From Clostridiales bacterium (GTDB taxonomy: Bacteria > Bacillota > Clostridia > Christensenellales > Aristaeellaceae): 64,000 nucleotides of DNA. The notes below the pieces were generated by a model, which worked only from the letters and a program-made list of their open reading frames with translations, had not been told where the DNA came from and made no database searches. Below, piece after piece: positions 33,207-50,180 of this stretch. Position numbers and translations under genes: made by a program. The stretch covers positions 620,001 through 684,000 of the forward strand of contig CP069419.1 in the NCBI GenBank assembly GCA_017569285.1, read 5' to 3'. Each line of letters opens with the position of its first letter. Within the stretch, counting starts at the first letter, position 1.

Positions 33207-34283
33207 ATGGGTCAGAAAATGCTCATGAAGGGGAACGAGGCCATCGCTGAAGCCGCCATCCAGGCCGGATGCCGCTTCTTCTTCGGCTATCCGATCACTC
33301 CCCAGAACCAGGTTCCTGAATACATGTCCAAGCGGCTGCCGAAGATTGAGGGCGGCTGTTTCCTGCAGGCGGAAAGTGAAGTTGCCGCCATCAATATGGT
33401 CTACGGTGCGGCCGGTGCCGGTGCCCGTGTCATGACCTCCTCTTCCAGCCCGGGAATTTCCCTCAAGCAGGAAGGAATCAGCTATATCGTCGGTGCGGAA
33501 CTGCCCTGCGTGATCGTCAACATGGTGCGCGGCGGCCCCGGCCTCGGTTCCATCCAGCCCGCCCAGAGCGACTATTACCAGTCCACCCGCGGCGGCGGCC
33601 ATGGTGACTACCGGATGCTGGTACTGGCTCCCGCCTCTGTGCAGGAAGCCGTCGAGCTGACGATGGACGCCTTTGACCTGGCGGACCGTTATCGCAACCC
33701 GGTCCTGATCATGGGGGACGGCCTGATCGGCCAGATGATGGAGCCCGTTGAAATGCCGGAGCACAAGGTGCCTGCCGACCTGCCTCCCAAGACCTGGGCG
33801 GCTACCGGCTGGACCCCGCAGTCCGACCGCGAGCGCGCGATCATCAACTCCCTGTATATCGACCCCGCCGTGCTGGAAAAGCACGTCAATCACCTGTATG
33901 AAAAGTACGCCGTCATGGAACAGACCGAATGCCGCTGGCAGGAGGAAATGACCGATGACGCGGACTATGTCATCGTTGCCTACGGCACCACCGCGCGTAT
34001 TGCCCGCAGTGCCATGCGCAAGCTTCGCGCGGAAGGCATCAAAGCCGGCCTCATCCGGCCCATCACCCTGTGGCCCTTCCCCAATGCGCCGATCGCCAAG
34101 GCTGCGGAGCATGCCAAGGCCTTCCTGACAGTGGAAATGAGCATGGGCCAGATGGTGGATGATGTCCGCCTGGCCGTGGACGGCAAAAAGCCTGTTCACT
34201 TCTTCGGCCGTACCGGCGGTATCGTCCCCACCGTACGCGAGATCATGACCCAGGTGGAAACGCTGGCAAAGGAGGGCAAATAA
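33207..34283 (+). CDS. vorB: 2-oxoacid:ferredoxin oxidoreductase alpha subunit (VorB-type)
   Basis: A 358-residue subunit preceded by [28 protein letters not shown] followed by [18 protein letters not shown] is typical of the pyrimidine-binding alpha subunit annotated as 3-methyl-2-oxobutanoate dehydrogenase subunit Vor[10 protein letters not shown] near residue 285 is also conserved. With the other three subunits it oxidises branched-chain 2-oxoacids (or 2-oxoglutarate) to acyl-CoA and CO2, reducing ferredoxin. The next gene begins two bases after the stop. KorA remains an alternative, since the families are close. Confidence 0.88.
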
Positions 34284-34285
34284 TC

Positions 34286-35023
34286 ATGGCTGTTGTGTAT
34301 GAAAAAACCAAGCTGCTGACCGACAAGCCGCTGCATTACTGCCCCGGCTGCACCCACGGCATCATTCACCGCCTGGTGGCGGAAACGATTGACGAGCTCG
34401 GTATCCAGGGCAAAACCATCGGTATCGCGCCTGTCGGCTGCGCCGTATTCGCCTACGACTACTTCAACTGCGACATGATGGAAGCCGCCCACGGCCGTGC
34501 TCCTGCGGTCGCCACCGGCTGCAAGCGCGTGAACCCGAACAACATCGTCTTCACCTACCAGGGCGACGGCGACCTTGCCTCCATCGGTGCTGCGGAAATC
34601 ACCCACGCGGCTACCCGCGGTGAAAACATCACCGTCATTTTCGTCAACAATGCCATTTACGGCATGACCGGCGGCCAGATGGCGCCCACCACCCTGCCGG
34701 GCCAGGTGACCACCACCTCTCCCTACGGCCGGGATCCCAAGCTGTGCGGCTATCCCATCCGGATCAGCGAAATGCTGGCCACACTGGATGGTCCCGCCTA
34801 TATCTCCCGCGTTTCCGTCCACGATGTAAAGCACATCATGGAGGCCAAGAAAGCCATCCGGAAAGCCTTCGAGATGCAGATTGCCGGAAAAGGCTTCTCC
34901 CTGGTGGAAGTCCTCTCCGCCTGCCCCACCAACTGGGGTATGACGCCGCAGGAAGCGCTGAAGTGGCTGGAAGCCAACATGATCCCCCAGTATCCGCTGG
35001 GTGTGAAAAAGGAGGTTGAGTAA
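34286..35023 (+). CDS. vorA: 2-oxoacid:ferredoxin oxidoreductase beta (TPP-binding) subunit
   Basis: A 245-residue TPP-binding subunit with a GGAGG site in the end of the previous gene. [33 protein letters not shown] (GDGD motif) and [17 protein letters not shown] (NNxxYGMTGGQ) are the expected cofactor-binding signatures. It belongs to the vorDBAC operon and completes the catalytic core with the alpha subunit. Naming as VOR rather than KOR follows the alpha subunit and is not certain. Confidence 0.9.
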
Positions 35024-35026
35024 TCC

Positions 35027-35563
35027 ATGGAAGCTCAATTTCTGATTGCCGGTTTCGGCGGCCAGGGCGTCCTGCTCATCGGCCAGCTGCTGGCCAAGGC
35101 GGCCATGCATGAAGGGATGAACGTTTCCTGGATGCCGTCCTACGGTCCGGAAATGCGCGGTGGCGAAGCCAACTGCGCCGTGGTCATCTCCGATGAGCCG
35201 ATCGGTTCTCCGCTCGTTACGGAAATCCCCTTCGCCGTCATCATGAACAAGCCCAGCATGATCAAGTTCACTCCGGCCATGGAAAAGGGCGGTATCATGC
35301 TGTACAACTCCTCCCTGATTGACATCACTCCTGACCGCGATGACATCGTCGCGATCCCGGTGGACTGCAACGGTATTGCGGAAGAGCTTGGCAATTCCCG
35401 TACCGCCAACATGGTTATGCTTGGTGCGATCCTGAAGAAGACCGGTGTGGTTTCCATCGATTCCGCCATGGAAGCCCTGAAAGCCACCTTCGGCCCGAAG
35501 AAGGAGCACCTGCTTCCCATCAACCGCCAGGCGATGGAACGCGGAGCGGCTGCTGTTGAGTAA
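35027..35563 (+). CDS. vorC: 2-oxoacid:ferredoxin oxidoreductase gamma subunit
   Basis: A 178-residue subunit starting three bases after the beta-subunit stop, with AAGGAGG upstream. LIAGFGGQGVLLIGQLLAKAA carries the GxGGQG motif and SWMPSYGPEMRGGEANCAVV is the CoA-domain signature of the family. It ends the operon, followed by a bidirectional terminator shared with the large minus-strand redox operon. The cytoplasmic complex is a source of reduced ferredoxin for Rnf. Confidence 0.92.
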   Translation: MEAQFLIAGFGGQGVLLIGQLLAKAAMHEGMNVSWMPSYGPEMRGGEANCAVVISDEPIGSPLVTEIPFAVIMNKPSMIKFTPAMEKGGIMLYNSSLIDITPDRDDIVAIPVDCNGIAEELGNSRTANMVMLGAILKKTGVVSIDSAMEALKATFGPKKEHLLPINRQAMERGAAAVE

Positions 35564-36864: not shown

Positions 36865-37680
36865 TTATGCGTAGCTGTGAAGCCCCGGCAGGAATGTATT
36901 CACCCCGATATAGGTGAAAATCACACAGATAAATCCGACAACCGCGAATATGGCTGCCGCTTTTCCCTTCCATCCGCGCATGATCCGCAGATGCAGGTAT
37001 ACCGCGTAGATGATCCAGGTTACGAGCGACCATGTTTCCTTCGGGTCCCAGTTCCAGTAGCTTCCCCAGCATTTCTTGGCCCAGAAGGCTCCGGTGATAA
37101 TCGTAATCGTCAGGAACAGCAGGCCCAGGCATACGCTGCGGTATTCAATCACATCCAGCTTGTCCCGGTCCGGTATATGCTGGTCCATAAATCCGTCCTT
37201 CCGGATTTTTTCCCGCACCAGGAAAATGAATCCCAGCACAAAGCTGACACCGAAGGCTCCGTAGCTCAGGATGGCCGTGGAAACATGGAATACCAGCCAG
37301 TTGCTCTGCAGGGCCGGCATCAGCGCGTGGATCTCCCGGCTCTGCATGGCGGCATACCCCATAATCAGGAAAACCACCGGCGCGGCAAACACGCCGAGAA
37401 AACTGAACCGGTACTTCGCGATGAAGATCAGGCTCACAAGGCACAGTGCCCATGCGAAACAGGTGGCGAACTCATACTGGTTGGTCATGGGAACCCTGCC
37501 TGCCGCAATTCCGCGCACAATCAGTGCCGCCGTATGGGCAACCAGGCCGCCGGTCTGGATCAGGGAAGCTGCTTTTGCCGCTGCGTTTTTCTTCAGCCCG
37601 GCAAACACAAAGTACAGCAGCATCGCCAGGAAGTATCCGGCCATGGCAATCGTAAACAGGATATTCTCCGCCTGTTCCAT
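36865..37680 (-). CDS. ccsB: Cytochrome c biogenesis protein CcsB/ResC (System II haem handling)
   Basis: A 271-residue membrane protein with about eight hydrophobic segments. The haem-handling WWD-type motif is GSYWNWDPKETWSLVTW, and conserved external His residues occur in the segments around it (for example LVFHVSTAILSYGAFG). With ResB it forms the System II cytochrome c synthase, which attaches haem to CxxCH sites outside the membrane. It lies eight bases after resB and in the operon encoding a protein with one CxxCK and four CxxCH sites, so it may be a dedicated synthase for that protein. Confidence 0.93.
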   Translation of the reverse strand: MEQAENILFTIAMAGYFLAMLLYFVFAGLKKNAAAKAASLIQTGGLVAHTAALIVRGIAAGRVPMTNQYEFATCFAWALCLVSLIFIAKYRFSFLGVFAAPVVFLIMGYAAMQSREIHALMPALQSNWLVFHVSTAILSYGAFGVSFVLGFIFLVREKIRKDGFMDQHIPDRDKLDVIEYRSVCLGLLFLTITIITGAFWAKKCWGSYWNWDPKETWSLVTWIIYAVYLHLRIMRGWKGKAAAIFAVVGFICVIFTYIGVNTFLPGLHSYA

Positions 37681-37688
37681 TCACATCG

Positions 37689-38717
37689 TCACCTCTTTCG
37701 CAGATAGAAAGCCATTACCAGCCCGGCCATCACGATGGCGGCACCCAGCATGGCCAGCCAGGAAAACCGGTCCCGTTTCACCATCAGCAGCGTGTAGTTG
37801 GATGGATTTCTGAACCGTACGGTGTATTCCTGGTCAATGGTTATCTCGTCATCCGCCTCCAGCACGTTCATCCCCCGGACCTCTCCCTGGTAGAAAACCA
37901 TATACAGGTATCCGGGTTTCTCCGGACGGGTGGATGCCATCGGGGATACAGCTCCCGTCTCCCCGTCATAATTCGGATAAAAGTTGTAGAACATCACCAC
38001 AATATCGGGGTCATCCGCCAGCGGCATATATTCCTGCACGCACAGGGTTTTCTGCTGCAGGATCTCCCCGTTCTTCTCCACGGTCACGTCTGCTGCCCAT
38101 CCGGCGGAATTCTGGAAAAATTCATATCCGCAGAGTTCCGCGGGATGGTTCACGCTGGCAGTCCCGTGCTCCTCTGTTCCGTCAGCACCGCATACTGTCA
38201 GCTCCGCGGTATACTGCCCGGCTGTTCCGTCTTCACGCCAGTCGATCGTAAAATCATCCACCGTTACCTGCAGGCCGGTTTCTGCCAGCGGTACAGTGTT
38301 CCCGGGCAGCCCGCTGATCGTATATTCCTCCTGGGTCATCTGCCCCATCGCAAATCCGATAATCAGCAGCAGGATTCCCAGGTGGCACACCCAAGCGCCC
38401 CAGATTCCGGCGAAGTTTCCCGGTTCCTTCCGGGTACGCCGGATCAACGGCCTGATCCGGATCAGGTTGCACATCAGCAGGCTCAGGCAGAGGAATCCGC
38501 TCAGGGTCAGGAACCACCAGCTGTGGTAAGCGTCATCGGCATGCAGGGCAGTAATAACTGCTGCCATTCGCTCACCAAACTGGCCGGAATACCACTCAAA
38601 AGTCTGTCCCTGGGGCACTGCTGAACTTAAAGCGCATGCCGCTGCGAGCATCACCAGGAGGGTGATGGCCAGCGGCATGGAGCCCAAGATCATTCTGATT
38701 TTTTTGAGTATCTTCAT
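37689..38717 (-). CDS. resB: ResB-like cytochrome c biogenesis protein
   Basis: A 342-residue protein with a short cytoplasmic N-terminus, three early hydrophobic segments (MILGSMPLAITLLVMLAAAC; WWFLTLSGFLCLSLLMC; WVCHLGILLLIIGFAMG), a large extracytoplasmic beta-rich domain, and a last segment (WLAMLGAAIVMAGLVMAFYL) near the C-terminus. This is the ResB/Ccs1 topology. It is shorter than many ResB proteins. A stable hairpin lies in the 45-base gap from the flavocytochrome gene. Together with CcsB it makes the System II synthase. Confidence 0.88.
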   Translation of the reverse strand: MKILKKIRMILGSMPLAITLLVMLAAACALSSAVPQGQTFEWYSGQFGERMAAVITALHADDAYHSWWFLTLSGFLCLSLLMCNLIRIRPLIRRTRKEPGNFAGIWGAWVCHLGILLLIIGFAMGQMTQEEYTISGLPGNTVPLAETGLQVTVDDFTIDWREDGTAGQYTAELTVCGADGTEEHGTASVNHPAELCGYEFFQNSAGWAADVTVEKNGEILQQKTLCVQEYMPLADDPDIVVMFYNFYPNYDGETGAVSPMASTRPEKPGYLYMVFYQGEVRGMNVLEADDEITIDQEYTVRFRNPSNYTLLMVKRDRFSWLAMLGAAIVMAGLVMAFYLRKR

Positions 38718-38762: not shown

Positions 38763-41687
38763 TCAGGTGTCCTGTTTTTCTCCGAGCAGCGTCAGCGCCT
38801 CGTTAATCTTTGCCTCGGAAGTCTCCAGGCAGGACAGCGACAGCGCAGAGTTGTGCGCTCCTTCGGAGTTTTCCACATAGCAGAAGTCAAAGAACCATTG
38901 GGCCTCCCGATGCAGTTTCCGCACCGCGTCCAATTCTTCCGCTCCAAGCTTTCCATCTGCCGCCGCGGCAGTCAGGGCGTCCTTCAGCCCGCTCAGCTTA
39001 TTGCCGACCTCGGTTTCCCGGGCTGTAACCTTTGCCTGGATCGTCTGCACAAGCGAAATCACGTTGTCTGCACTGCCATGGCATTTTGCGCAGGAATTCA
39101 GCAGAACCTCATTCTGCAGCGGACTGACAAAGTAGTGGCTTCTGTATTCAATACCGTCATCCGTAGTTGCCTGCGGCATATGGCAGTCCGCACATGTCAG
39201 GTTAAAACTCGCCGCGTGTTTTCCGCCCAGTACTGTCTCCATTTCCGGATGCTGGGCTTTCAGCATTTTTGTTCCGGTTCCCGGCTGCTCCCAGTCATAG
39301 AATCCCATGGCATCATAGTAGGCCAGGATCGCCTCCGGGGTCATCTCAGCTTTGCTGTGATAAGGCATCATAGTCTCGCTGTCCGACGGCGTGAAATAAT
39401 ACTCGATATGGCACTGCCCGCAGGATAGAATCGCAGCGGGAATCTCGGACACCGCGTCTCCCAGTGCAGTATTCACATAGCTGTGGGTTACCGCCAGCTG
39501 CCCATCCATCCCCATACCGTCGCCATGGCAGGTATAGCAGGAAATGGTGTTTTTCATCTGGGGCATCACTTCGTCAAATGCCATTGAATAAACCCCAATG
39601 CCTTCCGTATTGACGAGCCGGGCAAAATCATCTGTCTTGCAGGTAATGCAGTTTGCTTTCGGATGAGGCCGCAGCGTCTTGGATACGTCCTCCAGGGTGT
39701 AGGTATGGCCGCGGGCGCTGCCGTAATCCTTCGCGAATCCGAATCCCTCATAAATGTTCTTCAGGTACGGATCCTGCTCCAGGTAGTCGGTCACAATGTT
39801 GTTTTCAGTATTCTGGCCCATGGTTACCGCAATACCGGAGACCACAGATGTCGGAACCTTGGATGCTTCAGCCGCAGCCGTTTCGCCGGCTGCTTCTTCC
39901 TTTGCTTCCGCTGCAGGCATAGCTGCGGCATCATTCATTTCAGCCAGTGCGGTTTCCGCCGCAATCCGGCCGAAGATCACGATATCCGCCACCGCGTTGC
40001 CGCCCAGTCGGTTTCCGCCGTGCACACCGCCGGTCACTTCGCCCGCCGCATACAGTCCGGGAATCACTTTCCCTTCAGTATTGATCACATGTGCGGATGT
40101 GTCGATCTTCACGCCGCCCATCGTATGATGAATACCGGGAGCGATCTTGATCGCGTAATACGGAGCGGTTGTCAGATCTGCATTCATACCGGTCGTCCGG
40201 CCGAATTCCGGATCCTCCTGTTTCTTCACGCACTCGTTCCAGTCTGCCAGCGTCTTGGCCAGCACAGCGGGATCTACGGAGATCAGTTCCGCGAGTCCTT
40301 CGATGGTATCTGCCTGGACGGTAATCCCCGTCTTGACGTATTTCTCGACCGCCTTCAGGTGATCCCGCAGGTTCTGGTCGAAGATAATATAGGCATAATG
40401 GCCTTCCTGTGCCAGTTCCGCGGCGGATACCGCATCCCGGGTCAGCAGCTCGTTGGTGAAACGGACACCGCTCTGGTTCACCAGGATCGCGCCGTCACCC
40501 CGAACGGATTCGGTAATCAGCATGGAAGTCGACTGCTCCACGGTGGGATGCAGCTGGATCTGCTCGATGTCCACCAGATCCGCACCGAGCGCCTGGGCCA
40601 TCACAATACCGTCGCCGGTAGCGCCCGGGGCATTGGTAGTCACCGTACCCTTCAGATCCGGCCGGTACTGGGTGTACATTTCCTCATTGGCGCCGAAGCC
40701 GCCCGTCGCAAGGATGACCGCTTTGCAGTTGAATACGTAGTTGCAGTCCTTACCTTCCGCCTTTACGCCGCAGACCTTTCCGTCCGCGTCTGTCAGAAGT
40801 TCAGTTGCTTTCGTATTGTACATGGTCTCCACGCCCAGCTCATCCAGCTTGGCGCTGAAGCGCTCCACCAGGAACTCACCCACACCGGAACCGTCCGCCG
40901 GGGCATGAATCCGGTTCACGGATGCGCCGCCGGAGAAGGAAATCTTCGGCAGTTCCGCGCCGATGGAATCCAGCCAGTCAATGGCATTGGCGGATTCTTT
41001 CGCCATCACTTCCACCAGGGCCGGATCATTCAGGTCATGGCCGCCCTTAATGGTATCCGCAGCGAACAGTTCAACCGAGTCTTCAATTCCCTGTTCCTTC
41101 TGGTAATGCGTTTCCGCCGCGTTCATGCCGCCGGTTGCCTTGGTGGTGTTGCCGCCCGCATAGGGCATCTTTTCCAGCAGCACGAAATCCTCGCCCGCCT
41201 GCTTCACCATGATAGCCGCGGTCATTCCGGCGCCGCCGGCACCGATGATTACAATCCCGGTGTCAATAACTTTTTCTTCCTTGCTTCCCTTTTCACCGAT
41301 ATCCCTGCGGTTTGCGTCCAGCACGGCAATATCCGCGCCCGCCGCTGTCAGGGCCTCCGTTGCGGCCTTGATCACGGCGTTGCTGGTAACCGTCGCGCCG
41401 CTCACAGCGTCCACATTCGGGGTCTGGGCTTCCACAATCTTTGCGGACAGCATACCTGCTGCCACACCGCCCAGCGTTTCAGTTTCGTCTGTAGCGTCAA
41501 TCAGTACGGTGGTAATTTCTGTTTCGTCCACTGTGATCAGAACCTTCACGGTGCTCAGCATTCCCTGTGCTTCAGCCTGATAGGTTCCAGGAGTAAACAA
41601 TGTTTCCGCGGGCGCCGATTCAGCCGGTGCGGATACGGCGAACAGCATGACTGTCATGGCCATCAGCAGGCAGATCAGTTTTTTCAT
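38763..41687 (-). CDS. Secreted FMN-binding/flavocytochrome reductase fused to an NrfA-like pentaheme nitrite reductase
   Basis: A 974-residue fusion. Residues 1-22 are a signal peptide. Residues 32-115 form an FMN-binding domain with flavinylation motif DAVSGAT (Thr99). Residues 143-580 are a fumarate-reductase-type FAD domain (IVIIGAGGAGMTAA) keeping His380, Glu393, Arg417, His521 and Arg560 at the expected catalytic positions. After an Ala/Glu linker, residues 635-974 match NrfA: CITCK (680-684), then CYTCH, CGQCHIEYYF, CADCHMP and CAKCH, with KAQH (813), GGKHAA (824) and ENSEGAH (945). The CxxCK site is the substrate haem of cytochrome c nitrite reductases. Neighbours are a multi-FMN protein, Rnf and ResB/CcsB; no nrfH is present. 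It probably reduces nitrite to ammonia and an organic acid at separate heads. Confidence 0.9.
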   Translation of the reverse strand: MKKLICLLMAMTVMLFAVSAPAESAPAETLFTPGTYQAEAQGMLSTVKVLITVDETEITTVLIDATDETETLGGVAAGMLSAKIVEAQTPNVDAVSGATVTSNAVIKAATEALTAAGADIAVLDANRRDIGEKGSKEEKVIDTGIVIIGAGGAGMTAAIMVKQAGEDFVLLEKMPYAGGNTTKATGGMNAAETHYQKEQGIEDSVELFAADTIKGGHDLNDPALVEVMAKESANAIDWLDSIGAELPKISFSGGASVNRIHAPADGSGVGEFLVERFSAKLDELGVETMYNTKATELLTDADGKVCGVKAEGKDCNYVFNCKAVILATGGFGANEEMYTQYRPDLKGTVTTNAPGATGDGIVMAQALGADLVDIEQIQLHPTVEQSTSMLITESVRGDGAILVNQSGVRFTNELLTRDAVSAAELAQEGHYAYIIFDQNLRDHLKAVEKYVKTGITVQADTIEGLAELISVDPAVLAKTLADWNECVKKQEDPEFGRTTGMNADLTTAPYYAIKIAPGIHHTMGGVKIDTSAHVINTEGKVIPGLYAAGEVTGGVHGGNRLGGNAVADIVIFGRIAAETALAEMNDAAAMPAAEAKEEAAGETAAAEASKVPTSVVSGIAVTMGQNTENNIVTDYLEQDPYLKNIYEGFGFAKDYGSARGHTYTLEDVSKTLRPHPKANCITCKTDDFARLVNTEGIGVYSMAFDEVMPQMKNTISCYTCHGDGMGMDGQLAVTHSYVNTALGDAVSEIPAAILSCGQCHIEYYFTPSDSETMMPYHSKAEMTPEAILAYYDAMGFYDWEQPGTGTKMLKAQHPEMETVLGGKHAASFNLTCADCHMPQATTDDGIEYRSHYFVSPLQNEVLLNSCAKCHGSADNVISLVQTIQAKVTARETEVGNKLSGLKDALTAAAADGKLGAEELDAVRKLHREAQWFFDFCYVENSEGAHNSALSLSCLETSEAKINEALTLLGEKQDT

Positions 41688-41721
41688 GATGGTCCCCCTC
41701 CTCGTGGGTTCAGGTCGTCAC

Positions 41722-43203
41722 TTACTGGATTCTTCCCAGGATTTCATTCACCGCGTCAACAACCGCTCCTGAAGAAATCTTCAGCGTCGCGCCTGTGATC
41801 GCGTCAACATCAGCTGTTCCGTTTTCAACAATTGTTTTGGCCCAGGTATCTTTGATCTCGTCTGTCAGGAAATCGCTTCCTTCCATTTTTGCTTCAGACG
41901 TAATCTTGCAGTCGGTGATCTTGCCGCCCTTGGAGTTGATCATCACCTTGATGGTGCTGAAATTGGTCTCCCGCTTCGCCGTATAGCTGCCGTAATATAC
42001 ACGGCCGGCTTCCTCAGCAGGCTTTGCATCTTCCTTCTGCTCTTCCGCGGCGGGTTCCGCACCGGGGAACGCCTGGTTCAGTGCCTTCAGCACCGCGTTG
42101 GAGGTCACAGTCGCGCCGGAGAGCGCCTCAATGCCATTTTCACCATAGGTGAACGGGCCTTCTTTGCCGATAAACTGGCTGGTGAACGCTTCCTCGGAAG
42201 CCTTCTGGCCCAGGCCAGCGGTTTCATTCGGAGTATCGATGGACAGGGCTTTAACCGTCGTTCCATCCAGCGTTGCCTTGACCGTCACTTCACCGCCGAA
42301 GCCCTGTTCGGACTTCTCAATCTCGGTTCCGGCAACTGGTTCGGCAGCCTTCTCCTCCGCCGCAGGCGCTTCTGCGGCAGGTTCCGAAGCCGTTTCAGCG
42401 GGGAATGCCTTGTTCAGGCCCTCCAGCACCGCAGTTGAGGTCACGGTCGCACCGGTAATCGCTTCAACGCCGTTCTCGCCGTAGGTGAACGGGCCTTCCT
42501 TGCCGATAAACTGGCTGGTGAACGCTTCCTCGGAAGCCTTCTGGCCCAGGCCGGGTGTTTCATTCGGAGTATCGATGGACAGTGCCTTGACTGTCTTTCC
42601 ATCCAGCGTTGCCTTGATCGTCACTTCACCGCCGAAGCCCTGTACGGTTTCTTCTACGGTCGTGCCGGCAGCCTCCGGTTCAGCGGCGGATTCCTCCGCT
42701 TTGGGGTCTTCCGTTGTTTCCTGGACAAGCTCTTCCTTCACTTCCGCTTTGGGTTCTTCCGCCGGTTCCGCGGCATCCTCGCCGGTGATTGCTCGGTTCA
42801 GGGCTTTCAGCACCGCATTGGAAGTCACAGTCGCGCCGGAGAGCGCGTCAATCCCGTTCTCTCCGAAGGTGAACGGGCCTTCCTTGCCGATAAACTGGCT
42901 GGTGAAATCTACTTCGGATGCCCGCTGACCCAGCCCGGGCGTTTCGTCCGGTGTTTCAATGGTCAGTGCCTGTACGGTCGACCCGTCCAGTGTTGCCTTC
43001 ACCGTCACCGTACCGCCGAAGCCCTGTTCGGTTTCTTCGACAGCGGTTCCGTTCACCGCCGGGCCGTTCGCTTTTTCCGCCAAGTTATAGGTCATGTGTT
43101 CCCCGCCGATGATCCCCGTCAGAAACAGGGAAACGGCAATCAGTACCAATGCGCAGAGTATCAACCGGACCCACTGTCTCTTTTCAAAGTTATTCATGGC
43201 CAT
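41722..43203 (-). CDS. Membrane-anchored protein with four FMN-binding domains
   Basis: A 493-residue protein with one N-terminal membrane segment (LILCALVLIAVSLFLTGIIGG) and the rest outside. Three near-identical RnfG/NqrC-like FMN-binding domains (about 52-138, 182-268, 295-380) share GFGG..VTVKATLDG, GLGQ and SQFIGKEGPFT. A fourth domain of the shorter PplA/UrdA type follows (400-493). Candidate flavinylation motifs end in Thr125, Thr253, Thr365 and Thr473 (DALSGAT, EAITGAT, EALSGAT, DAITGAT). Ala/Glu/Pro-rich linkers separate domains. It starts seven bases after rnfB and probably carries electrons from Rnf to the flavocytochrome. An ApbE flavin transferase is required but is not in the window. 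Confidence 0.9.
   Translation of the reverse strand: MAMNNFEKRQWVRLILCALVLIAVSLFLTGIIGGEHMTYNLAEKANGPAVNGTAVEETEQGFGGTVTVKATLDGSTVQALTIETPDETPGLGQRASEVDFTSQFIGKEGPFTFGENGIDALSGATVTSNAVLKALNRAITGEDAAEPAEEPKAEVKEELVQETTEDPKAEESAAEPEAAGTTVEETVQGFGGEVTIKATLDGKTVKALSIDTPNETPGLGQKASEEAFTSQFIGKEGPFTYGENGVEAITGATVTSTAVLEGLNKAFPAETASEPAAEAPAAEEKAAEPVAGTEIEKSEQGFGGEVTVKATLDGTTVKALSIDTPNETAGLGQKASEEAFTSQFIGKEGPFTYGENGIEALSGATVTSNAVLKALNQAFPGAEPAAEEQKEDAKPAEEAGRVYYGSYTAKRETNFSTIKVMINSKGGKITDCKITSEAKMEGSDFLTDEIKDTWAKTIVENGTADVDAITGATLKISSGAVVDAVNEILGRIQ
42100..42960 (-). repeat. Direct repeats encoding three FMN-binding domains
   Basis: Blocks around 42149, 42485 and 42870 share long near-identical stretches (for example gaacgggccttc...ccgataaactggctggtgaa), with a 336-base period between the first two. 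This suggests recent internal duplication within the gene. Confidence 0.8.
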
Positions 43204-43209
43204 CTCTCC

Positions 43210-44004
43210 TTATACGGCGGTCGTGGTAATTGCTTTCACCGGGCATTTCGCCGCGCACTTTCCGCACAGCGTGCATTTGTCCGGATTGATCCGGGCAAGC
43301 GTTCCGTCAAATTCGATCGCGCCGAATTCGCACTGTTTCGCGCACAGGCCGCAGCCAATGCATCCGGCAGTGCAGACTTTCTTCACCTGGGGTCCCTTGT
43401 CCTTGTTCGAGCACTGCACCCGGATGATCCGGCTTTCCGGAATCAGGGTAATCAGTCCCCGCGGGCAGGTTTTGGCGCACAGGCCGCAGCTGACACAGCG
43501 GTTCCGGTTCACAACGGCAACACCGTTCCGGATGGAAATCGCCTGTTCCGGGCACACATCCACGCAGGAGCCAAAGCCCAGGCAGCCATAGTTGCAGTCG
43601 GTGATATTGATGCCGGCCATCACAGCAGCCCGGCAGTCCTTGATTCCGATATAGTTCCCCTGGTTGTGCGTGACGTCGCAGGTGCCTTTGCACGCAACAA
43701 AAGCGACCTTGCGTTCCATGGCTCCCGCCCGGGTACCCATGATATCGCCGATAGCTTCCGCTGCGGCTGCACCGCCTACCGGGCAGGCATTCACCGGGGC
43801 TTCTCCCTTGGCGATGGCTGCCGCCAGCGCGTCACATCCCGCGTATCCGCAGGCGCCGCAGTTGTTGCCGGGCAGTTTGGAACGAACCGCTACTTCCCGT
43901 TCATCCACTTCAACAGCGAATTTCTTCCCTGTGAAAACCAGACCCGCACCGACGCAGATTCCGATGACCGCAATGACCAGTGTGGTTGCCAGAATGATAT
44001 TCAT
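43210..44004 (-). CDS. rnfB: Rnf complex subunit RnfB (ferredoxin-accepting iron-sulfur subunit)
   Basis: A 264-residue protein with an N-terminal membrane helix and many cysteines. The Fes-type domain has GNNCGACGYAGCDALAAAI and a later NACP. Downstream are GFGSCVDVCP, CVSCGLCAKTCPRG, CIGCGLCAKQCEFG and CTLCGKCAAKCPVK, giving several [4Fe-4S] sites; CKGTCDVTHN may bind a further centre. RnfB takes electrons from ferredoxin at the cytoplasmic face. It follows rnfA by 14 bases and is followed after six bases by the multi-FMN gene. Confidence 0.96.
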   Translation of the reverse strand: MNIILATTLVIAVIGICVGAGLVFTGKKFAVEVDEREVAVRSKLPGNNCGACGYAGCDALAAAIAKGEAPVNACPVGGAAAAEAIGDIMGTRAGAMERKVAFVACKGTCDVTHNQGNYIGIKDCRAAVMAGINITDCNYGCLGFGSCVDVCPEQAISIRNGVAVVNRNRCVSCGLCAKTCPRGLITLIPESRIIRVQCSNKDKGPQVKKVCTAGCIGCGLCAKQCEFGAIEFDGTLARINPDKCTLCGKCAAKCPVKAITTTAV

Positions 44005-44018
44005 TCGTTCACACCTCC

Positions 44019-44597
44019 TCAGTGCGGCAGCCCGCCGAAGCCCATAAACGCGATGGACATCAACGCGGCGGCAATCATGACAATCGGGGCGCCCCGCAGC
44101 GGGGCCGGCAGGTCCTTCTCATTGATCCGGGTACGGATTCCGGCCAGCAGGATGATGGCAATGGTGTAGCCCAGTGCCGTACCAAAACCGCTGGTAACGC
44201 ATTCAATGAAGTTGTACCCATCCTGCACGTTGTTCAGGGCAACGCCCAGCACTGCGCAGTTGGTGGTGATCAGCGGCAGGTAAATACCCAGCGCCTGGTA
44301 CACCCCGGGGGACTTCTTCTTCAGGAACATTTCCACAATCTGGACCAGCGCGGCAATCACCAGGATGAAAATGATGGTTTTCATGAAGTCCATGCCCAGC
44401 GGATTCAGCACATAGTCATACAGCAGGCTGGCCACGGCGCTGGCAATGGTGATAACGAAGATGACAGCCACGCCCAGGCTGGCGGAAGCCTTCATCTGTT
44501 TGGAAACACCGAGGAAGGAACAGATTCCCAGGAACTGGTTCAGCACGACGTTGCTGATCAGGGCACTGCCCACCATAATCATGATCAGTCCGTTCAC
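44019..44597 (-). CDS. rnfA: Rnf complex subunit RnfA
   Basis: A 192-residue membrane protein with six hydrophobic segments, matching the usual RnfA length. SNVVLNQFLGICSFLGVSKQ in helix 1-2 and TTNCAVLGVALNN carry the two conserved cysteines that, with those of RnfE, bind a membrane-embedded iron-sulfur cluster. Its ATG overlaps the rnfE stop by four bases (ATGA). Confidence 0.96.
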   Translation of the reverse strand: MNGLIMIMVGSALISNVVLNQFLGICSFLGVSKQMKASASLGVAVIFVITIASAVASLLYDYVLNPLGMDFMKTIIFILVIAALVQIVEMFLKKKSPGVYQALGIYLPLITTNCAVLGVALNNVQDGYNFIECVTSGFGTALGYTIAIILLAGIRTRINEKDLPAPLRGAPIVMIAAALMSIAFMGFGGLPH

Positions 44598-45352
44598 TTC
44601 ACCTCGCCTCCTTCCTTCACGGCGGCCTCAATGGCCTTGGGTGCCTCCTGCAGCGCTTTCGGCTGCTCTTCCGCACCGGCGGTTTCTTCCTTCCGGTCAC
44701 TGCACACGGTGGAGCACAGTGCGCAGTTGCCGTCGCATCCGCTCTCCACCAGCTGGCGCTGGCGGGTTTTGATGCCGATGGCGTTCATCACAGCGATGAT
44801 CAGTGCGAATACCAGGAACGCTCCCGGAGGCTGGATGAAGATCGTCATTCCGAAGCCTTCCGGCAGGAGCTGGAAGCCGAAGATCTTTCCGGCGCCCAGC
44901 AGTTCACGGATCGCACCGGCAATCGTCAGTGCGACTGTAAAGCCGATACCCATGCCGATACCGTCCATCACGGAGAGCAGCGGCGTATGCTTGTTGGCGT
45001 AAGCTTCCGCACGGCCGAGGATGATGCAGTTCACCACGATCAGCGGAATGTAGATGCCCAGCGCTTCATAAATGCTGGGGATATAGGCTTTGATCAGCAG
45101 TTCCGTCACCGTCACCAGGCTGGCAACAATCACAATATACGCGGGCAGCCGTACCTGGTCCGGAATCACCTTCCGCAGCAGGCTGATCACCAGGTTGCTC
45201 AGCACCAGTACCGCCAGGGTGCTCAGGCCCATGCCGATACCATTCATCGCCTGGGTGGATACCGCCAGGGCCGGGCACATGCCCAGCATCAGGACCAGTA
45301 CCGGGTTTTCCTTGACCAGGCCGTTCCAGAGGCGCTCGAAATACTTTTTCAT
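44594..45352 (-). CDS. rnfE: Rnf complex subunit RnfE with Cys-rich C-terminal tail
   Basis: A 252-residue membrane protein starting MKKYFERLWNGLVKENPVLVL; the GGAGG site lies in the end of the rnfDG gene and ATG 45352 is directly after that gene's stop. LMLGMCPALAVSTQAMNG and LIVVNCIILGRAEAYA hold the conserved helix cysteines. After the last helix the tail contains GCDGNCALCSTVC, an extra four-cysteine group that may bind a metal or cluster. RnfE with RnfA forms the membrane core for ion-coupled electron transfer. Confidence 0.94.
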   Translation of the reverse strand: MKKYFERLWNGLVKENPVLVLMLGMCPALAVSTQAMNGIGMGLSTLAVLVLSNLVISLLRKVIPDQVRLPAYIVIVASLVTVTELLIKAYIPSIYEALGIYIPLIVVNCIILGRAEAYANKHTPLLSVMDGIGMGIGFTVALTIAGAIRELLGAGKIFGFQLLPEGFGMTIFIQPPGAFLVFALIIAVMNAIGIKTRQRQLVESGCDGNCALCSTVCSDRKEETAGAEEQPKALQEAPKAIEAAVKEGGEVK

Positions 45353-45353
45353 C

Positions 45354-46898
45354 TCAATTGCCTCCCTTCGTTGCTTCTTCGCAGAACGCAAGTCCGGCGT
45401 TCACACCGTTCACCACAGCCGTGGAGGTAACCGTCGCGCCGGTCAGTGCACTGATTTCCTGTTCTCCTGATGCAGTACCCTTGATCAGGTTCAGCTCTCC
45501 GCTCCTGCCGGTAAACTGATCCTTGAAGGGCGCTTTGTCCGCCTCCATGCCCAGGCCGGCTGTTTCATTCAGTTCCGTGAAAGCAATCTTCCGGACCGCG
45601 CCGTCGGGCGTCAGGCCCAGCGCCATGGTTACATCCCCGCCGAATCCCTTGGCGGTTACGCTCGCGGCATATCCGGCCACCTGGCCGTCCGCAGTCTTGC
45701 CAACGTAGAATTCGTTGATCTTCGGGGAAGCTTTCTCATCCTGCTTCGCAATCAGTTCCTCCGCCGCGTCCACCAGTTCAAAGGTTTCCGCTTCCGGGCA
45801 CACTTCCTTGTATGCGGCAGTCTTCTTCTGCAGCTCCTGCAGGTCGATGGTTCCCTTGGTCATGGAGTAAACGCCGCTCAGCGCCACACCGGCGATTGCC
45901 GCAATCAGCGTCAGGGCGATCACAGGTTTCGGAATCCGGAACGGCTCCCGCTTTACCGGGCGGGTCCTGCCGATCTTCCGGTAAGCCAGCGGCTTCTGGA
46001 CGATGTAGGTATCAATCAGGGGCGTGCATACGTTGCCGATGATGATCGCGTAGCTGAAGGAGTCCGCCGTGTTGCCGTACAGCCGGAACACGCCGCCCAG
46101 CACGCCGATCAGGCAGCCGTAGATAAACTGTCCCAGCCGGCTGACCGGGCTGGTCACATAGTCGGTCGCCATGAAGAACGCGCCCATCACCACGCCGCCG
46201 CCGCACAGGTGCGCCAGCAGGAATTTGATGTCGAAGCCCTGTCCGCCGAACAGCGCAAGAAACAGGGTAAATCCGCCCAGCACGGAGAAGCAGCAGATCT
46301 GGCCGTGGATGATGTCCATGCTCCACAGCACCAGGCCGCCGATCAGCAGCGCCAGGATGGAACTTCCGATTACGCCGTCCGCGGTGCCGAGGAACATCCG
46401 GGTGATGTCCACGGTTCCGTTCATCCTCAGCACGCCCATGGGGGTCGCGGAAGATGTCGCGTCCAGGATCGGGGAAATGCTCATCGCGTTGGCAAAGGAG
46501 ATCAGCAGGAAGCAGCGTGCCGCCAGCGCCGGGTTGATGAAATTCTTGCCCAGTCCGCCGAAGCAGCCCTTGACAACCGCGATTGCGAACACGGAACCGA
46601 TCACCGGCAGGTACAGAGGCGTCCGCGGTCCCAGGGACAGCGCCAGCAGCAGGCCGGTCACAGCTGCGCTGCCGTCCCAGATCGTATTCGGTTTATGGAC
46701 GATCTTGTTGAATACCCATTCGGTCAGTACAGCTGAAATCACAGCCAGCGCGACAATCGCGAATGCCTGCCAGCCGTATGAAATGATTCCGACACAGGTG
46801 GCCGGCATCAGGCTCAGCAGCACGACCCGCATGATATACGGGGTTGTCCATCTGTCCCTTACATGGGGAGAAGAGGAAATATTCAGCGCCTCGCTCAT
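45354..46898 (-). CDS. Rnf complex RnfD-RnfG fusion protein
   Basis: A 514-residue protein in one open frame. Residues 1-310 are RnfD: membrane segments, WDGSAAVTGLLLALSLGP, GGLGKNFINPALAARCFLL and the flavin-attachment region TSSATPMG. A linker (KIGRTRPVKREPFRIPKP) leads to another membrane segment and an RnfG domain with GFGGDVTMALGL, TAGLGMEA and ISALTGATVTST, whose Thr is the likely covalent FMN site. Rnf subunits D and G are usually separate adjacent genes; here both domains are complete. ATG 46898 overlaps the rnfC stop by four bases. Confidence 0.92.
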   Translation of the reverse strand: MSEALNISSSPHVRDRWTTPYIMRVVLLSLMPATCVGIISYGWQAFAIVALAVISAVLTEWVFNKIVHKPNTIWDGSAAVTGLLLALSLGPRTPLYLPVIGSVFAIAVVKGCFGGLGKNFINPALAARCFLLISFANAMSISPILDATSSATPMGVLRMNGTVDITRMFLGTADGVIGSSILALLIGGLVLWSMDIIHGQICCFSVLGGFTLFLALFGGQGFDIKFLLAHLCGGGVVMGAFFMATDYVTSPVSRLGQFIYGCLIGVLGGVFRLYGNTADSFSYAIIIGNVCTPLIDTYIVQKPLAYRKIGRTRPVKREPFRIPKPVIALTLIAAIAGVALSGVYSMTKGTIDLQELQKKTAAYKEVCPEAETFELVDAAEELIAKQDEKASPKINEFYVGKTADGQVAGYAASVTAKGFGGDVTMALGLTPDGAVRKIAFTELNETAGLGMEADKAPFKDQFTGRSGELNLIKGTASGEQEISALTGATVTSTAVVNGVNAGLAFCEEATKGGN

Positions 46899-48244
46899 TT
46901 CTGGTTCCCCCCTTCCCGCTTTTTCGCGGCGGTAATTTCCGCCTTGGCTTGTTTGAACACCTGCATCAGCGGCCGTTTCGCCGGGCAGATGAAGGTGCAG
47001 CTGCCGCACTGGATGCACTCCAGTCCGTACAGCTTCTTCTCATACCGGGCCAGGTCCCCGGCGATCGCCGCGTCGGCCATCAGCTGGGGCATCAGCCCGA
47101 CCGGGCATACCGTGGTGCAGCGTCCGCAGTGCAGGCAGGCGGTCATCAGTTTCTCCGCGTCCTCCACCGGGTCTTCCGCCATCACGGTCAGTCCGTTGTT
47201 CTGCTTCTGGATCGGAATATCCAGGCTTCCGATCGCAACGCCCATCATCGGGCCGCCGGCCAGCGCCTTGGCCGCTTTGCATTCTTCCTTGATGCCGCCG
47301 CATTCCTCCAGCAGCTCCGCGTAGCTCGTGCCGACCCGTACAAAGAAGTTGCCGGGTTCCTTCACCGCATCGCCGCTCACCGTGAAGCACTGGCTGAACA
47401 GCGGTTCATGGTACAGCACCGCGCGCTGGATCGCGTACAGCGTCCCTACGTTCTGCACAATGCATCCCACGTCCGCCGGCAGCTTGCTGATCGGGAAATC
47501 AACGCCCGTCACCGCCTGGATCAGGCTGCGTTCACCGCCCTGCGGGTACTTTGTGATCATTTCCTGCACCCGGATCTTCGGCTTGCCGGAAACGGCAATC
47601 TGCATCGCGTGGATCGCTTCGGGTTTGTTTTCCTCAATGCAGATTACGCCCTCCGCGTTCGGGAAAAGGCGGAGTACCAGCTCCAGGCCTTCCGCGATCG
47701 CCGTGGACTGGGTGCGCATCAGCTGATCATTGCAGGTCAGGTACGGTTCACATTCCGCGCCGTTTGCAATGATGTACTGGATTGCGTCCGGATCCTTGGG
47801 CTTCAGCTTAACATGCGTCGGGAATCCAGCGCCGCCGAGACCTACAATACCTGCTTCCTGCACACGGCTGATGATATCATCGTTGGACAGGTGGGACGCG
47901 CTCTCCTTCTGCGTGAAATCCGCAAAGGGAGTAAACTGCCCGTCGTTGTCAATCACGATGCAGTCAATCATGCCTCCGCCAAGCACCCGGCGCTTCTCGA
48001 TCGCCTTTACCTTGCCGGAACAGCTGGAGTAGATATGGGCGGAAACAAATCCGTCCGCCTCCGCAATCTTTTGTCCTGTCAGCACCTCGTCTCCCCGTTG
48101 GACCAGCGGCTTTGCGGGCTTCCCGATATGCTGCTGGAGCGGAAATACCATTTCCCCTTTCGGGTCAAACAGGCGCAGCCGGGCCTCACGGCTCAGCTCC
48201 TTCCGCTCCTCCGGGTGCACCCCGCCGCGAAACGTGTTTCTCAC
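46895..48244 (-). CDS. rnfC: Rnf complex subunit RnfC (NADH-side subunit), GTG start
   Basis: About 449 residues. The proposed start is GTG 48244 (reading VRNTFRGGVHPEERKE), with AAAGGAG 11 bases upstream; a longer frame would run into the preceding gene. Glycine-rich GLGGAGFPTHVKL near residue 130 is the NADH/FMN-binding region, shared with complex I 51-kDa subunits. Two cluster motifs, CLHCGRCTTVCPVG and CIQCGSCTFICPAKRP, lie near the C-terminus. RnfC exchanges electrons with NADH in the cytoplasm. It follows the diguanylate cyclase gene by 34 bases on the same strand. Confidence 0.95.
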   Translation of the reverse strand: MRNTFRGGVHPEERKELSREARLRLFDPKGEMVFPLQQHIGKPAKPLVQRGDEVLTGQKIAEADGFVSAHIYSSCSGKVKAIEKRRVLGGGMIDCIVIDNDGQFTPFADFTQKESASHLSNDDIISRVQEAGIVGLGGAGFPTHVKLKPKDPDAIQYIIANGAECEPYLTCNDQLMRTQSTAIAEGLELVLRLFPNAEGVICIEENKPEAIHAMQIAVSGKPKIRVQEMITKYPQGGERSLIQAVTGVDFPISKLPADVGCIVQNVGTLYAIQRAVLYHEPLFSQCFTVSGDAVKEPGNFFVRVGTSYAELLEECGGIKEECKAAKALAGGPMMGVAIGSLDIPIQKQNNGLTVMAEDPVEDAEKLMTACLHCGRCTTVCPVGLMPQLMADAAIAGDLARYEKKLYGLECIQCGSCTFICPAKRPLMQVFKQAKAEITAAKKREGGNQK

Positions 48245-48278
48245 TGTGATACTGGCTCCTTTCCATTGCGATTTTGAT

Positions 48279-50180
48279 TTATCTTCCGGCTTTCCGCTCG
48301 GTTTTGACTTCGTACATCCGGGCGTCGGCGACTTTGATACAGTCGTCCATCGTCTTTCCTTCCGAAGCCTCCGCACTGCATGTGCCGATGGAGAATCCAA
48401 GCTGGAACGGCATTCCGGAACTGCGGTTATAGTCATCCGCAGCTGCCAGGATCCGTTCTTTCAGGTCTTTCTCGTCCCATTGGGCAATGATCACAAATTC
48501 GTCGCCGCCATACCGGATAATAACGTCTTCCGGATCACAGCACTCCGACAGGATCCACGCGGATGCTTTCAGCGCCTCATCGCCCGCGTTATGGCCGTAC
48601 AGGTCATTGGTCAGCTTCATGTCATCCATATCCGTGAAAAGAACCTGGGCGCCGCCGTCCCGTTCCATCAGCCAGTCAAATGTCTCCTGCCCGAAGCGTT
48701 TCAGTCCGAACCGGTTATACAGGCCGGTCAGGCTGTCCCGCACGTACAGCTCATCCAGCGTCTCATTGAACTGGCGGAGAAGTTCCTTCTTCCGCACGTT
48801 TTCAATGGCGATTTCCAGGAAGTTGAATATGCTTTCATGCAGGTTCATCTTCGCTGCGTCGCTGATTCCGTCCAGTGCGATATATCCGATGGAATAGGTG
48901 TTGTAGTGCAGCGGATAGAACATCATGAACCGTTCCCGTTTCAGCAGGGTTTCCGGCAGGAGTTCCCCGGTCGGGAAGCGGATAAATTCGTAATTTTCGT
49001 TACCGTTTCCGCACGAATGTCCACTCTTCCGGACCGCCAGGATCATTTCCTCGCCGAAGGGCTTCTCCTCCTCCGGCCACTCGCTCTTGTCAAAATGGTC
49101 GAAGTAATAGTCGTTGAAGCACAGGTAGATATCCTGGCATCCGAAAATCCGGCGGTTCTTGCCGACGGTTTCCACCAGTTCCTGCAGGTTATTGGCTTCG
49201 AACAGGTCTTCAGCCATCTGCCCCTGCAGGTTGTAGAAATCCTTCAGGAAGCGGGTCTGCTGGAAATACAGTTCCCGGATCGTCCCCGGCCGCGCCGTTT
49301 CGGAACATCCGCAGGATTCGGAACAAACCACATGAAAGTCGGTAAGGATTTCCTTCCGGGAATCCTTCCCGTCAATCAGGCTGATCAGCAGATCCATCGC
49401 CTGGTAATTCTGGGCCTGGTTGTCCCCGCCCACCGTGGACAGGCGGGGGCTGGAAAGCTCCGAGCTGGACAGATTGTCAAACCCGGTTACAATCACGTCC
49501 TGCGGAATCCGGATTCCGCGGTTTTTCAGGGCAGTCATCAGGCCGATGGCCATTTCGTCATTCGCGCAGATAAACGCGTCCGGCATTTCCCGTTTTTCCC
49601 GAATCCAGGTGTCCGCAAGGTCTGTACCGTCGCTCGTGCGCCATGTGGCGGGAACAATCTGCACGTCCTGCTTCGGGATCCTGTTTTCCTCGCATGCGTC
49701 TTCAAACCCGTCCAGTCGTTCCCGGGCTTCCGGGCTGCCGTTGTCGGTATTTCCGGTCAGGTAAACCAGCCTTTGTGCGTGATGATCGCGGATCACATGG
49801 TTTACAATTGCCCGCTGGGCGGCGCGGTTGTCAAAGCGGATTAAAGAGCACCCTTCCATCGGTGCCCCGATGCTGACCGCCGGGACTCCGGCTTCCACAA
49901 TCCGGCGTTCAATGGCATCCCGTACCCGTTTCAGCACAATCTGATTTCCCTGCACCAGTACCCCGTCAAATTTGCGCAGGTCCGGCAGGTCAAAAATGAT
50001 GTATTCGCTTCTGTCCTTTGCGTTGTCCAGGTCCTTGCCCAGACAGTCAAAAATATAGATATATACGTTCTCATGGTCATCCGCATACCGCTTCAGGCCA
50101 TGCAATGTGCTTTCAACCAGTTCATAATTCCAGTCAACCGTAAAAAAGGCGATCCGGTACTGTTGCTTGCCTGGACCCAT
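48279..50180 (-). CDS. Diguanylate cyclase with LacI/periplasmic-binding-type sensor domain
   Basis: A 633-residue soluble protein with AAAAGGAG upstream. Residues about 8-285 look like a LacI/GalR-type ligand-binding domain without a DNA-binding helix-turn-helix (FFTVDWNYELVES, GVPAVSIG, DAFICANDEMAIGLM, VIVTGFDNL). A central region of about 300-465 may be another sensor, followed by a coiled linker and a GGDEF domain (DSLTGLYNRFG, IIRYGGDEFVI). The intact GGDEF motif predicts c-di-GMP synthesis. No signal peptide or membrane segment is seen, so a cytoplasmic ligand, perhaps a sugar, is sensed. It is the first gene of the Rnf-flavocytochrome operon. Confidence 0.88.
   Translation of the reverse strand: MGPGKQQYRIAFFTVDWNYELVESTLHGLKRYADDHENVYIYIFDCLGKDLDNAKDRSEYIIFDLPDLRKFDGVLVQGNQIVLKRVRDAIERRIVEAGVPAVSIGAPMEGCSLIRFDNRAAQRAIVNHVIRDHHAQRLVYLTGNTDNGSPEARERLDGFEDACEENRIPKQDVQIVPATWRTSDGTDLADTWIREKREMPDAFICANDEMAIGLMTALKNRGIRIPQDVIVTGFDNLSSSELSSPRLSTVGGDNQAQNYQAMDLLISLIDGKDSRKEILTDFHVVCSESCGCSETARPGTIRELYFQQTRFLKDFYNLQGQMAEDLFEANNLQELVETVGKNRRIFGCQDIYLCFNDYYFDHFDKSEWPEEEKPFGEEMILAVRKSGHSCGNGNENYEFIRFPTGELLPETLLKRERFMMFYPLHYNTYSIGYIALDGISDAAKMNLHESIFNFLEIAIENVRKKELLRQFNETLDELYVRDSLTGLYNRFGLKRFGQETFDWLMERDGGAQVLFTDMDDMKLTNDLYGHNAGDEALKASAWILSECCDPEDVIIRYGGDEFVIIAQWDEKDLKERILAAADDYNRSSGMPFQLGFSIGTCSAEASEGKTMDDCIKVADARMYEVKTERKAGR

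Follow-up and report, generated by a model that had tools for sequence, protein, structure and literature searches.

Results

The fusion gene and its operon

The window examined here is a stretch of 64,000 nucleotides from a Clostridiales bacterium (contig CP069419.1, positions 620,001 to 684,000), and its minus strand carries a gene for a 974-residue fusion protein at window positions 38763..41687. Judging from its reading frame, Pfam matches and motifs, this protein combines a signal peptide, an FMN_bind domain for flavin mononucleotide (FMN), an FAD_binding_2 domain for flavin adenine dinucleotide (FAD) and a module resembling the nitrite reductase NrfA. The gene belongs to one operon with rnfA, rnfB, rnfC, rnfD and rnfE, each of which passes its NCBIfam cut-off. 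The order of transcription is rnfC, rnfD joined to an RnfG-type FMN domain, rnfE, rnfA, rnfB, a gene for a protein with four FMN_bind domains (the 4xFMN protein), the fusion gene, resB, ccsB and a gene for a GDSL hydrolase. The main point that we add to the original prediction, a note made from the sequence of the window, is that in one clade of NrfA modules, called clade A below, NrfA regularly accompanies Rnf.

Translation bears out the uninterrupted frame of the original prediction, with an ATG start and 974 codons, and assigns it to the minus strand, on which all of the window features located in this section lie unless noted otherwise. A purine-rich, ribosome-binding-like sequence, GAGGAGGGGG, stands immediately 5′ of the ATG, and spacers of 34 bp and 45 bp separate the gene from its upstream neighbor and from resB downstream. 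The signal peptide proposed earlier agrees with a hydrophobic N terminus read by eye; it is likely to be cleavable, comprising about residues 1-23 (41619..41687), and the chain is likely to be secreted. The sole other notable hydrophobic stretch begins at residue 143 and corresponds to the FAD-binding strand. The FMN_bind domain occupies residues 42-113 (41349..41564; PF04205, whole-protein E = 1e-11), and a motif search finds the expected flavinylation motif DAVSGAT at residues 93-99, with Thr99 (41391..41411). Having an FMN_bind domain with an xGAT-type motif, in a genome that also encodes ApbE, the protein is predicted to carry an attached flavin. The sole ApbE gene found adjoins another FMN-FAD reductase frame of 857 residues (G000:C1:2065886-2070218 of the window genome). 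The fumarate-reductase-type FAD domain follows at residues 145-566 (39990..41255; PF00890, E = 4e-87; also TIGR01813 and active-site residues), and the NrfA-like pentahaem module at residues 628-968 (38784..39806; PF02335, Cytochrom_C552, E = 6e-74). These E-values are so low that the domain matches are not due to chance. Between the two halves lies an Ala/Glu-rich linker, residues 585-622 (39822..39935), evident from the translation, the DNA and a predicted local distance difference test (pLDDT) score below 50 at residues 587-622. In the DNA of the window the linker is in frame, which agrees with the uninterrupted frame of the original prediction.

Upstream, the operon comprises rnfC (46895..48436, TIGR01945; its true start may be internal), rnfD fused to the FMN_bind domain (45354..47018; TIGR01946 and Pfam), rnfE (44594..45391, TIGR01948), rnfA (44019..44597, TIGR01943) and rnfB (43210..44004, TIGR01944). 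The RnfG-type domain on RnfD scores slightly short of the TIGR01947 rnfG cut-off (96.7 versus 102). The RnfG-like 4xFMN protein (41722..43203), a likely electron relay, has an N-terminal hydrophobic helix as its membrane anchor, four FMN_bind stretches in Pfam and four motifs; with TIGR01947 it scores 140.7 versus 102, spread over several stretches, and it lies below the cut-offs of other RnfG models. Downstream, resB (37689..38717; Pfam and genome search) and ccsB (36865..37680; TIGR03144 above cut-off) encode parts of a cytochrome c haem lyase. Genes for a 2-oxoacid:ferredoxin oxidoreductase (33207-35563, plus strand), a possible source of reduced ferredoxin, converge on the operon. Directly upstream of rnfC, a protein with periplasmic-binding-protein-like and GGDEF parts (48279-50180) could regulate it.

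The window genome (3.27 Mb in 2 contigs, 97% complete) has one C552 match, one ApbE and one ResB gene. Three further FMN-FAD reductase frames lie elsewhere in it, the best-matching stretch being 51% identical. The genome has zero matches to PF03264 (Cytochrom_NNT), by which NrfH was sought; NrfB was not searched for. It likewise has zero matches to PF01040, the UbiA-family prenyltransferases, versus matches in 14 of 14 control genomes. MenA and its futalosine-route counterpart both belong to the UbiA family, and menaquinone synthesis by either is therefore not expected.

Active-site residues of the two halves

The NrfA module scores 250 bits with the Cytochrom_C552 profile (cut-off 24.1) over profile positions 29-380 of 438. 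Translation and motif searches recover every haem motif that had been listed, one CxxCK and four CxxCH in NrfA order: CITCK of the active-site haem at residue 680 (39636..39650), CYTCH at 717, CGQCH at 756, CADCH at 832 and CAKCH at 866. KAQHPE at residue 810 and ENSEGAH are also present. Comparison with the PDB matched NrfA-type chains at E-values of 5.5e-46 to 1.3e-23, and RGH, CxxCK, CGQCHxEYYF, KAQHPE and four further His residues align with five NrfA chains. The residue set is thus complete, with the active haem motif and four CxxCH, the catalytic Arg/Tyr/His, the Ca-site Glu/Tyr/Lys/Gln and four distal His, to which we assign the roles presumed for NrfA.

The solved structures closest to the FAD half are those of flavocytochrome c fumarate reductases (E = 5e-128), and this half passes both TIGR01813 (527.8 versus 285.45 bits) and NF005064 (575.9 versus 542 bits). 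We aligned it with Shewanella Fcc3 at eight positions that we take to be catalytic. Seven are identical (H365, T377, E378, R381, R402, H504 and R544), whereas Leu replaces M375; the His and Arg residues among the eight agree with the original claim that all expected catalytic His and Arg are present. These residues fit fumarate, and close analogues may also serve as substrates. The N-terminal tetrahaem domain is missing from the fusion: FMN_bind stands in its place, and every CxxCH or CxxCK begins at or beyond residue 680.

Rnf synteny among relatives

We scanned the best 79 loci of at least 521 relatives, most of them from metagenome-assembled genomes; many of these locus titles bear ruminant-gut sample names, and most of the loci share the gene order. 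Loci were selected by similarity to NrfA, not by Rnf. Removal of 24 duplicate NrfA modules left 116 distinct ones including that of the window, with which 96 others (clade A) share 54-90% identity and 19 (the neighboring clade B) 42-48%. For upstream counts we required a closed 5′ end and 1.5 kb of upstream sequence, dropping 10 of 96 rows in clade A and 1 of 19 in clade B. By this measure, rnfB is among the two nearest recognised upstream genes in 83 of 86 distinct clade A loci and is the nearest in 80 of them, versus 0 of 18 loci in the neighboring clade. Downstream resB/ccsB genes are found in both clades (94/96 and 19/19).

As a control, 20 ordinary NrfA regions were picked by hand from the phylum list; 15 of them pass the motif rule, and the five lacking a passing open reading frame were left out. 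An NrfH-like neighbor with 3-5 haems occurs in 14 of these 15 loci and Rnf in none. The same neighbor test finds an NrfH-like protein in 0 of 97 Rnf-clade loci, a count in which some species appear twice and some flanks are short. Rnf thus occupies in clade A the place that is usual for NrfH.

The same pattern is seen at the genus level. A C552 match is present in 24 of 45 genomes, and we read the regions of 22 of the 23 genomes other than that of the window, G021 having two short fragments. The rnf genes directly precede the NrfA gene in 18 of these 22 regions, and resB-ccsB come next in 17 of the 18, the remaining contig ending in the gene. The other four genomes (G005, G009, G011 and G037) carry an NrfA from another clade, without rnf. 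The NrfA genes of the genus differ in form: some encode NrfA by itself with a membrane helix, others a fusion with FMN domains, and those of the window and G024 a fusion with both FMN and FAD domains.

Many relatives have NrfA fused to FMN domains, and one has it fused to RnfB. Domain labels of relatives are BLAST matches to the proteins of the window, with Pfam checks for L073, L089, L055, L074, L137, L096, L144, L053 and L165; an FMN_bind label on L053 was dropped, as Pfam finds no such domain there. Among 65 rows labeled as solo NrfA, three are cut at a 5′ contig end (L076, L078 and L083) and one at a 3′ end (L088), and these may represent longer proteins. The RnfB fusion (L144:7951-10068) is a single 705-residue frame with a cytosolic FeS protein, a membrane helix and NrfA, both partners being confirmed by Pfam. 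Elsewhere, two NrfA modules stand in tandem in one 811-residue frame behind rnfB (L140:8761-11196), and G005 has a separate FMN-NrfA fusion of 1083 residues, in which five FMN_bind domains are joined to an NrfA of the Rnf-unlinked clade (L165:6865-10113; 46-47% identical).

Distribution and origin of the FAD-NrfA fusion

The joining of FAD to NrfA domains is rare. A database check of the three-part architecture, as the original prediction had advised, shows that it recurs: 3 of the 116 distinct modules have it, namely the window's, L073 and L089, the latter two confirmed by Pfam. L073, apparently on the same contig as G024, encodes 1219 residues with a membrane helix, three FMN domains, FAD and NrfA; its FAD half is 89% identical to that of the window, and one additional FMN domain separates FAD from NrfA. 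The L089 protein (973 residues; membrane helix, FMN, FAD and NrfA) has an FAD half just 55% identical to the window's, and its NrfA branches elsewhere in the tree, where it groups with a stand-alone NrfA (moderate support in a quick tree without bootstrap). Because of this different placement and FAD domain, we count at least two independent FAD-NrfA fusions. One observation that the original prediction named as refuting it, halves kept apart in all close relatives, is thus made in part: the halves are mostly separate genes, or the FAD half is not seen at the locus, but they are fused in L073 and L089.

In L137 and L149 an FMN-FAD gene (76% identical) lies between rnfB and nrfA, and L096 has one of another subfamily at the same place; a fusion could plausibly have followed from such an arrangement. 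In L046/L079, the GDSL gene and the 2-oxoacid:ferredoxin oxidoreductase genes flank an FMN-FAD gene that is 86% identical; no gene occupies this place in the window. The nearest relative (G006, locus L055) is collinear with the window, with 88-93% identity at the DNA level, outside a stretch of 2173 bp. By DNA comparison, this segment (39833..42005, minus strand), represented by about 50 bp in L055, contains the fourth FMN domain of the upstream gene, its stop, and the signal peptide, FMN and FAD parts of the fusion. The tree requires three changes of the FAD label, each a gain or a loss, and the FAD part may have been either gained in the lineage of the window or lost in L055. Ratios of nonsynonymous to synonymous substitution (dN/dS) are 0.065 for NrfA versus L055 and 0.05-0.11 for FAD versus L048 and L046; NrfA versus L048 is saturated and yields no value.

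Two broader distributions were considered and rejected. The fusion is not a fixed trait of the genus, as FAD together with NrfA was seen in just two of the 24 C552-positive genomes, the window's and G024 (G021 having fragments). Nor is it widespread in the phylum: of 398 genomes, 93 have a match, and the list contains no further frame above 900 residues with a near full-length C552 match. A family sample gave C552 matches in 89 of 300 genomes; all of its C552 frames of at least 800 residues were examined, and the window's alone had an FAD domain. An order sample gave matches in 17 of 396 genomes.

Discussion

In the systems known, nitrite ammonification by NrfA is quinol chemistry, with electrons passing through NrfH or NrfBCD. 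Like the NrfA of NrfHA systems, the module studied here is pentahaem, with CxxCK first, catalytic and Ca-site motifs and four extra His residues. Unlike it, the module has FMN and FAD domains attached, a shorter loop before CxxCK and no NrfH found with it, and its electrons probably derive from Rnf rather than quinol. The FAD domain, with its catalytic residues, resembles that of Fcc3, although the haems of the fusion belong to a C-terminal NrfA module and those of Fcc3 to an N-terminal tetrahaem domain. The pairing of FMN_bind with FAD is also seen in FMN-FAD fumarate/urocanate reductases, as among the flavinylated reductases of the main text of PMC8238504.

We propose, with a probability of roughly 0.64, that the sequence encodes an Rnf-fed extracytosolic double terminal reductase, acting on nitrite and on a fumarate-type substrate. 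We infer not only these substrates but also the direction of electron flow, the conservation of energy and the origin of the fusion. Reduced ferredoxin (or NADH) would feed the Rnf complex, which would pass electrons to the covalent FMN that RnfD::G carries on the outer side of the membrane. From there the membrane-anchored 4xFMN protein would relay them to the fusion, with its FMN domain and haems. They would end at the CxxCK haem, reducing nitrite to ammonia and possibly hydroxylamine or nitric oxide (NO) as well, or alternatively at the FAD, with fumarate or a similar compound as the acceptor. In this scheme both NrfH and quinol would be replaced by the 4xFMN protein; in relatives, the FMN domains fused to NrfA may serve as the outlet. 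The adjacent ResB-CcsB would mature the haems. The fusion itself probably began with an FMN-NrfA gene already linked to Rnf, which later became continuous, in frame, with the gene of an FMN-FAD reductase beside it.

The original prediction had spoken of one enzyme with two terminal active sites and a shared electron supply. One chain with two complete sets of active-site residues agrees with the first part, as far as sequence can tell. The shared supply has become more likely, because a full rnf operon and the 4xFMN protein lie upstream and because genes for FAD reductases and NrfA adjoin or fuse in several lineages. As described in parts of PMC11889175, electrons in the Rnf complex of A. woodii pass from ferredoxin through RnfB and the AE1 cluster to the FMN of RnfG outside the membrane, and then through the flavins of RnfD to RnfC; Na+ translocation is tied there to RnfA/E en route to the RnfG flavin, and that study finds no evidence that RnfD translocates Na+. 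Electrons leaving at the RnfG flavin could thus still allow energy to be conserved, because the Na+ step lies on the way to it. With about even odds, then, Rnf would work in many ruminant-gut clostridial genomes as an ion-pumping ferredoxin:nitrite oxidoreductase, connected through covalent flavins to an extracellular NrfA with neither quinone nor NrfH, and some lineages would have merged NrfA and fumarate reductase into a two-headed, acceptor-switching enzyme.

Several observations weigh against the proposed double reductase and its Rnf supply. In the nearest relative, L055, three FMN domains are joined straight to NrfA without the FAD part, and no close copy of the FAD half was seen elsewhere in its genome (G006, 79% complete); the fusion is therefore not essential to the role of NrfA. 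Rnf is missing from the neighborhood of three clade A loci, L118, L125 and L095, the last of which lies on a short contig. The NCBIfam NrfA models NF008339 and TIGR03152 score far under their cut-offs (202.8 versus 595 and 167.2 versus 692.5 bits), for which reason we regard the module as a divergent NrfA and file it as NrfA-like. A 97%-complete genome could miss a gene, and quinones could be imported or made by other routes. Finally, an AlphaFold model of the 974-residue chain, built from 41 aligned sequences, is too poor for cofactor distances (mean pLDDT 59.5; predicted template modeling score 0.41).

The two halves might also be independent enzymes on a tether, each fed separately by the 4xFMN/Rnf relay and exchanging no electrons between FAD and haem, a variant that is compatible with the Rnf part of our proposal and has a little less than an even chance. 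Each half occurs alone in relatives, the Ala/Glu-rich linker has low model confidence and L073 places an extra FMN domain between the halves; however, at least two independent fusions and the operon neighborhood hint that the halves are together by more than chance. A detoxifying role against NO and nitrite is known for NrfA enzymes elsewhere, and it is possible, if rather unlikely, that the NrfA half removes nitrite, NO or hydroxylamine formed from dietary nitrate, with Rnf a mere electron tap and no energy-conserving respiration. The gut habitats in the titles of relatives are in line with such a role, although an ion-pumping complex upstream in nearly all clade A loci fits respiration while being compatible with both.

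It is improbable that the NrfA module has lost nitrite reduction and serves the fumarate reductase half as a haem wire, in the manner of the Fcc3 tetrahaem domain. Flavocytochrome c fumarate reductases do combine the same FAD domain with haems (domain order in the main text of PMC8238504), but CxxCK, the catalytic Arg/Tyr/His and the Ca-site motifs are all retained here, dN/dS is low, and 94 of 96 other clade A rows have the module but no FAD. Artificial joining of two genes, by a frameshift, a chimera or the loss of a stop, would agree with the absence of the FAD half from the nearest relative and with contigs that end inside the gene in some relatives. Nevertheless, we reject a sequencing or assembly artefact, whose probability is close to nil, on the evidence of flanks collinear with that relative, the related fusion in a second species and the independent one in L089; moreover, the window genome is nearly complete and in few contigs.

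The nearest prior art for the proposed double reductase is an eLife 2021 survey of flavinylation, whose main text reports multi-flavinylated RnfG with a multihaem cytochrome domain in Christensenellales (PMC8238504). As in the window, an Rnf cluster there has an extra FMN-domain protein carrying a multihaem domain, and this group is probably the same as the FMN-NrfA fusions of our relatives. The term NrfA is absent from that main text, its two mentions of nitrite concern NirS with NapH-like systems, and the parts covered describe no fusion of a fumarate-reductase-like protein with NrfA. In Methanosarcina acetivorans, too, Rnf is supplemented by a multihaem c-type cytochrome through which electrons leave, although parts of PMC12174285 expect it to serve methanophenazine or extracellular acceptors rather than nitrite reduction; the word nitrite is absent from the main text of this 2025 RNF review. 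A literature search, with supplements outside its scope, found no published account of an FMN-FAD-NrfA fusion, in line with the original statement that none was known, and no recognisable account of Rnf linked to NrfA or another nitrite reductase.

The clade-wide link between Rnf and NrfA is most worth testing. If true, electron transfer from ferredoxin by way of Rnf and covalent flavins, independent of quinones, would connect fermentation with nitrite respiration in a new manner, perhaps accompanied by ion pumping. The double fusion offers a single-protein case for asking whether electrons are shared among the FMN, FAD and haem heads. Nitrate has been studied as a ruminant feed additive against methane, and nitrite is toxic in that setting. 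The Rnf-NrfA arrangement recurs in many ruminant-gut clostridial genomes; parts of a rumen study credit nrfA primarily to Prevotella and Bacteroides (PMC12918512).

Apart from this system, the window encodes a 1682-residue protein (58948-63996, minus strand) with eleven SpaA and four Cna_B stretches, which is probably a surface protein.

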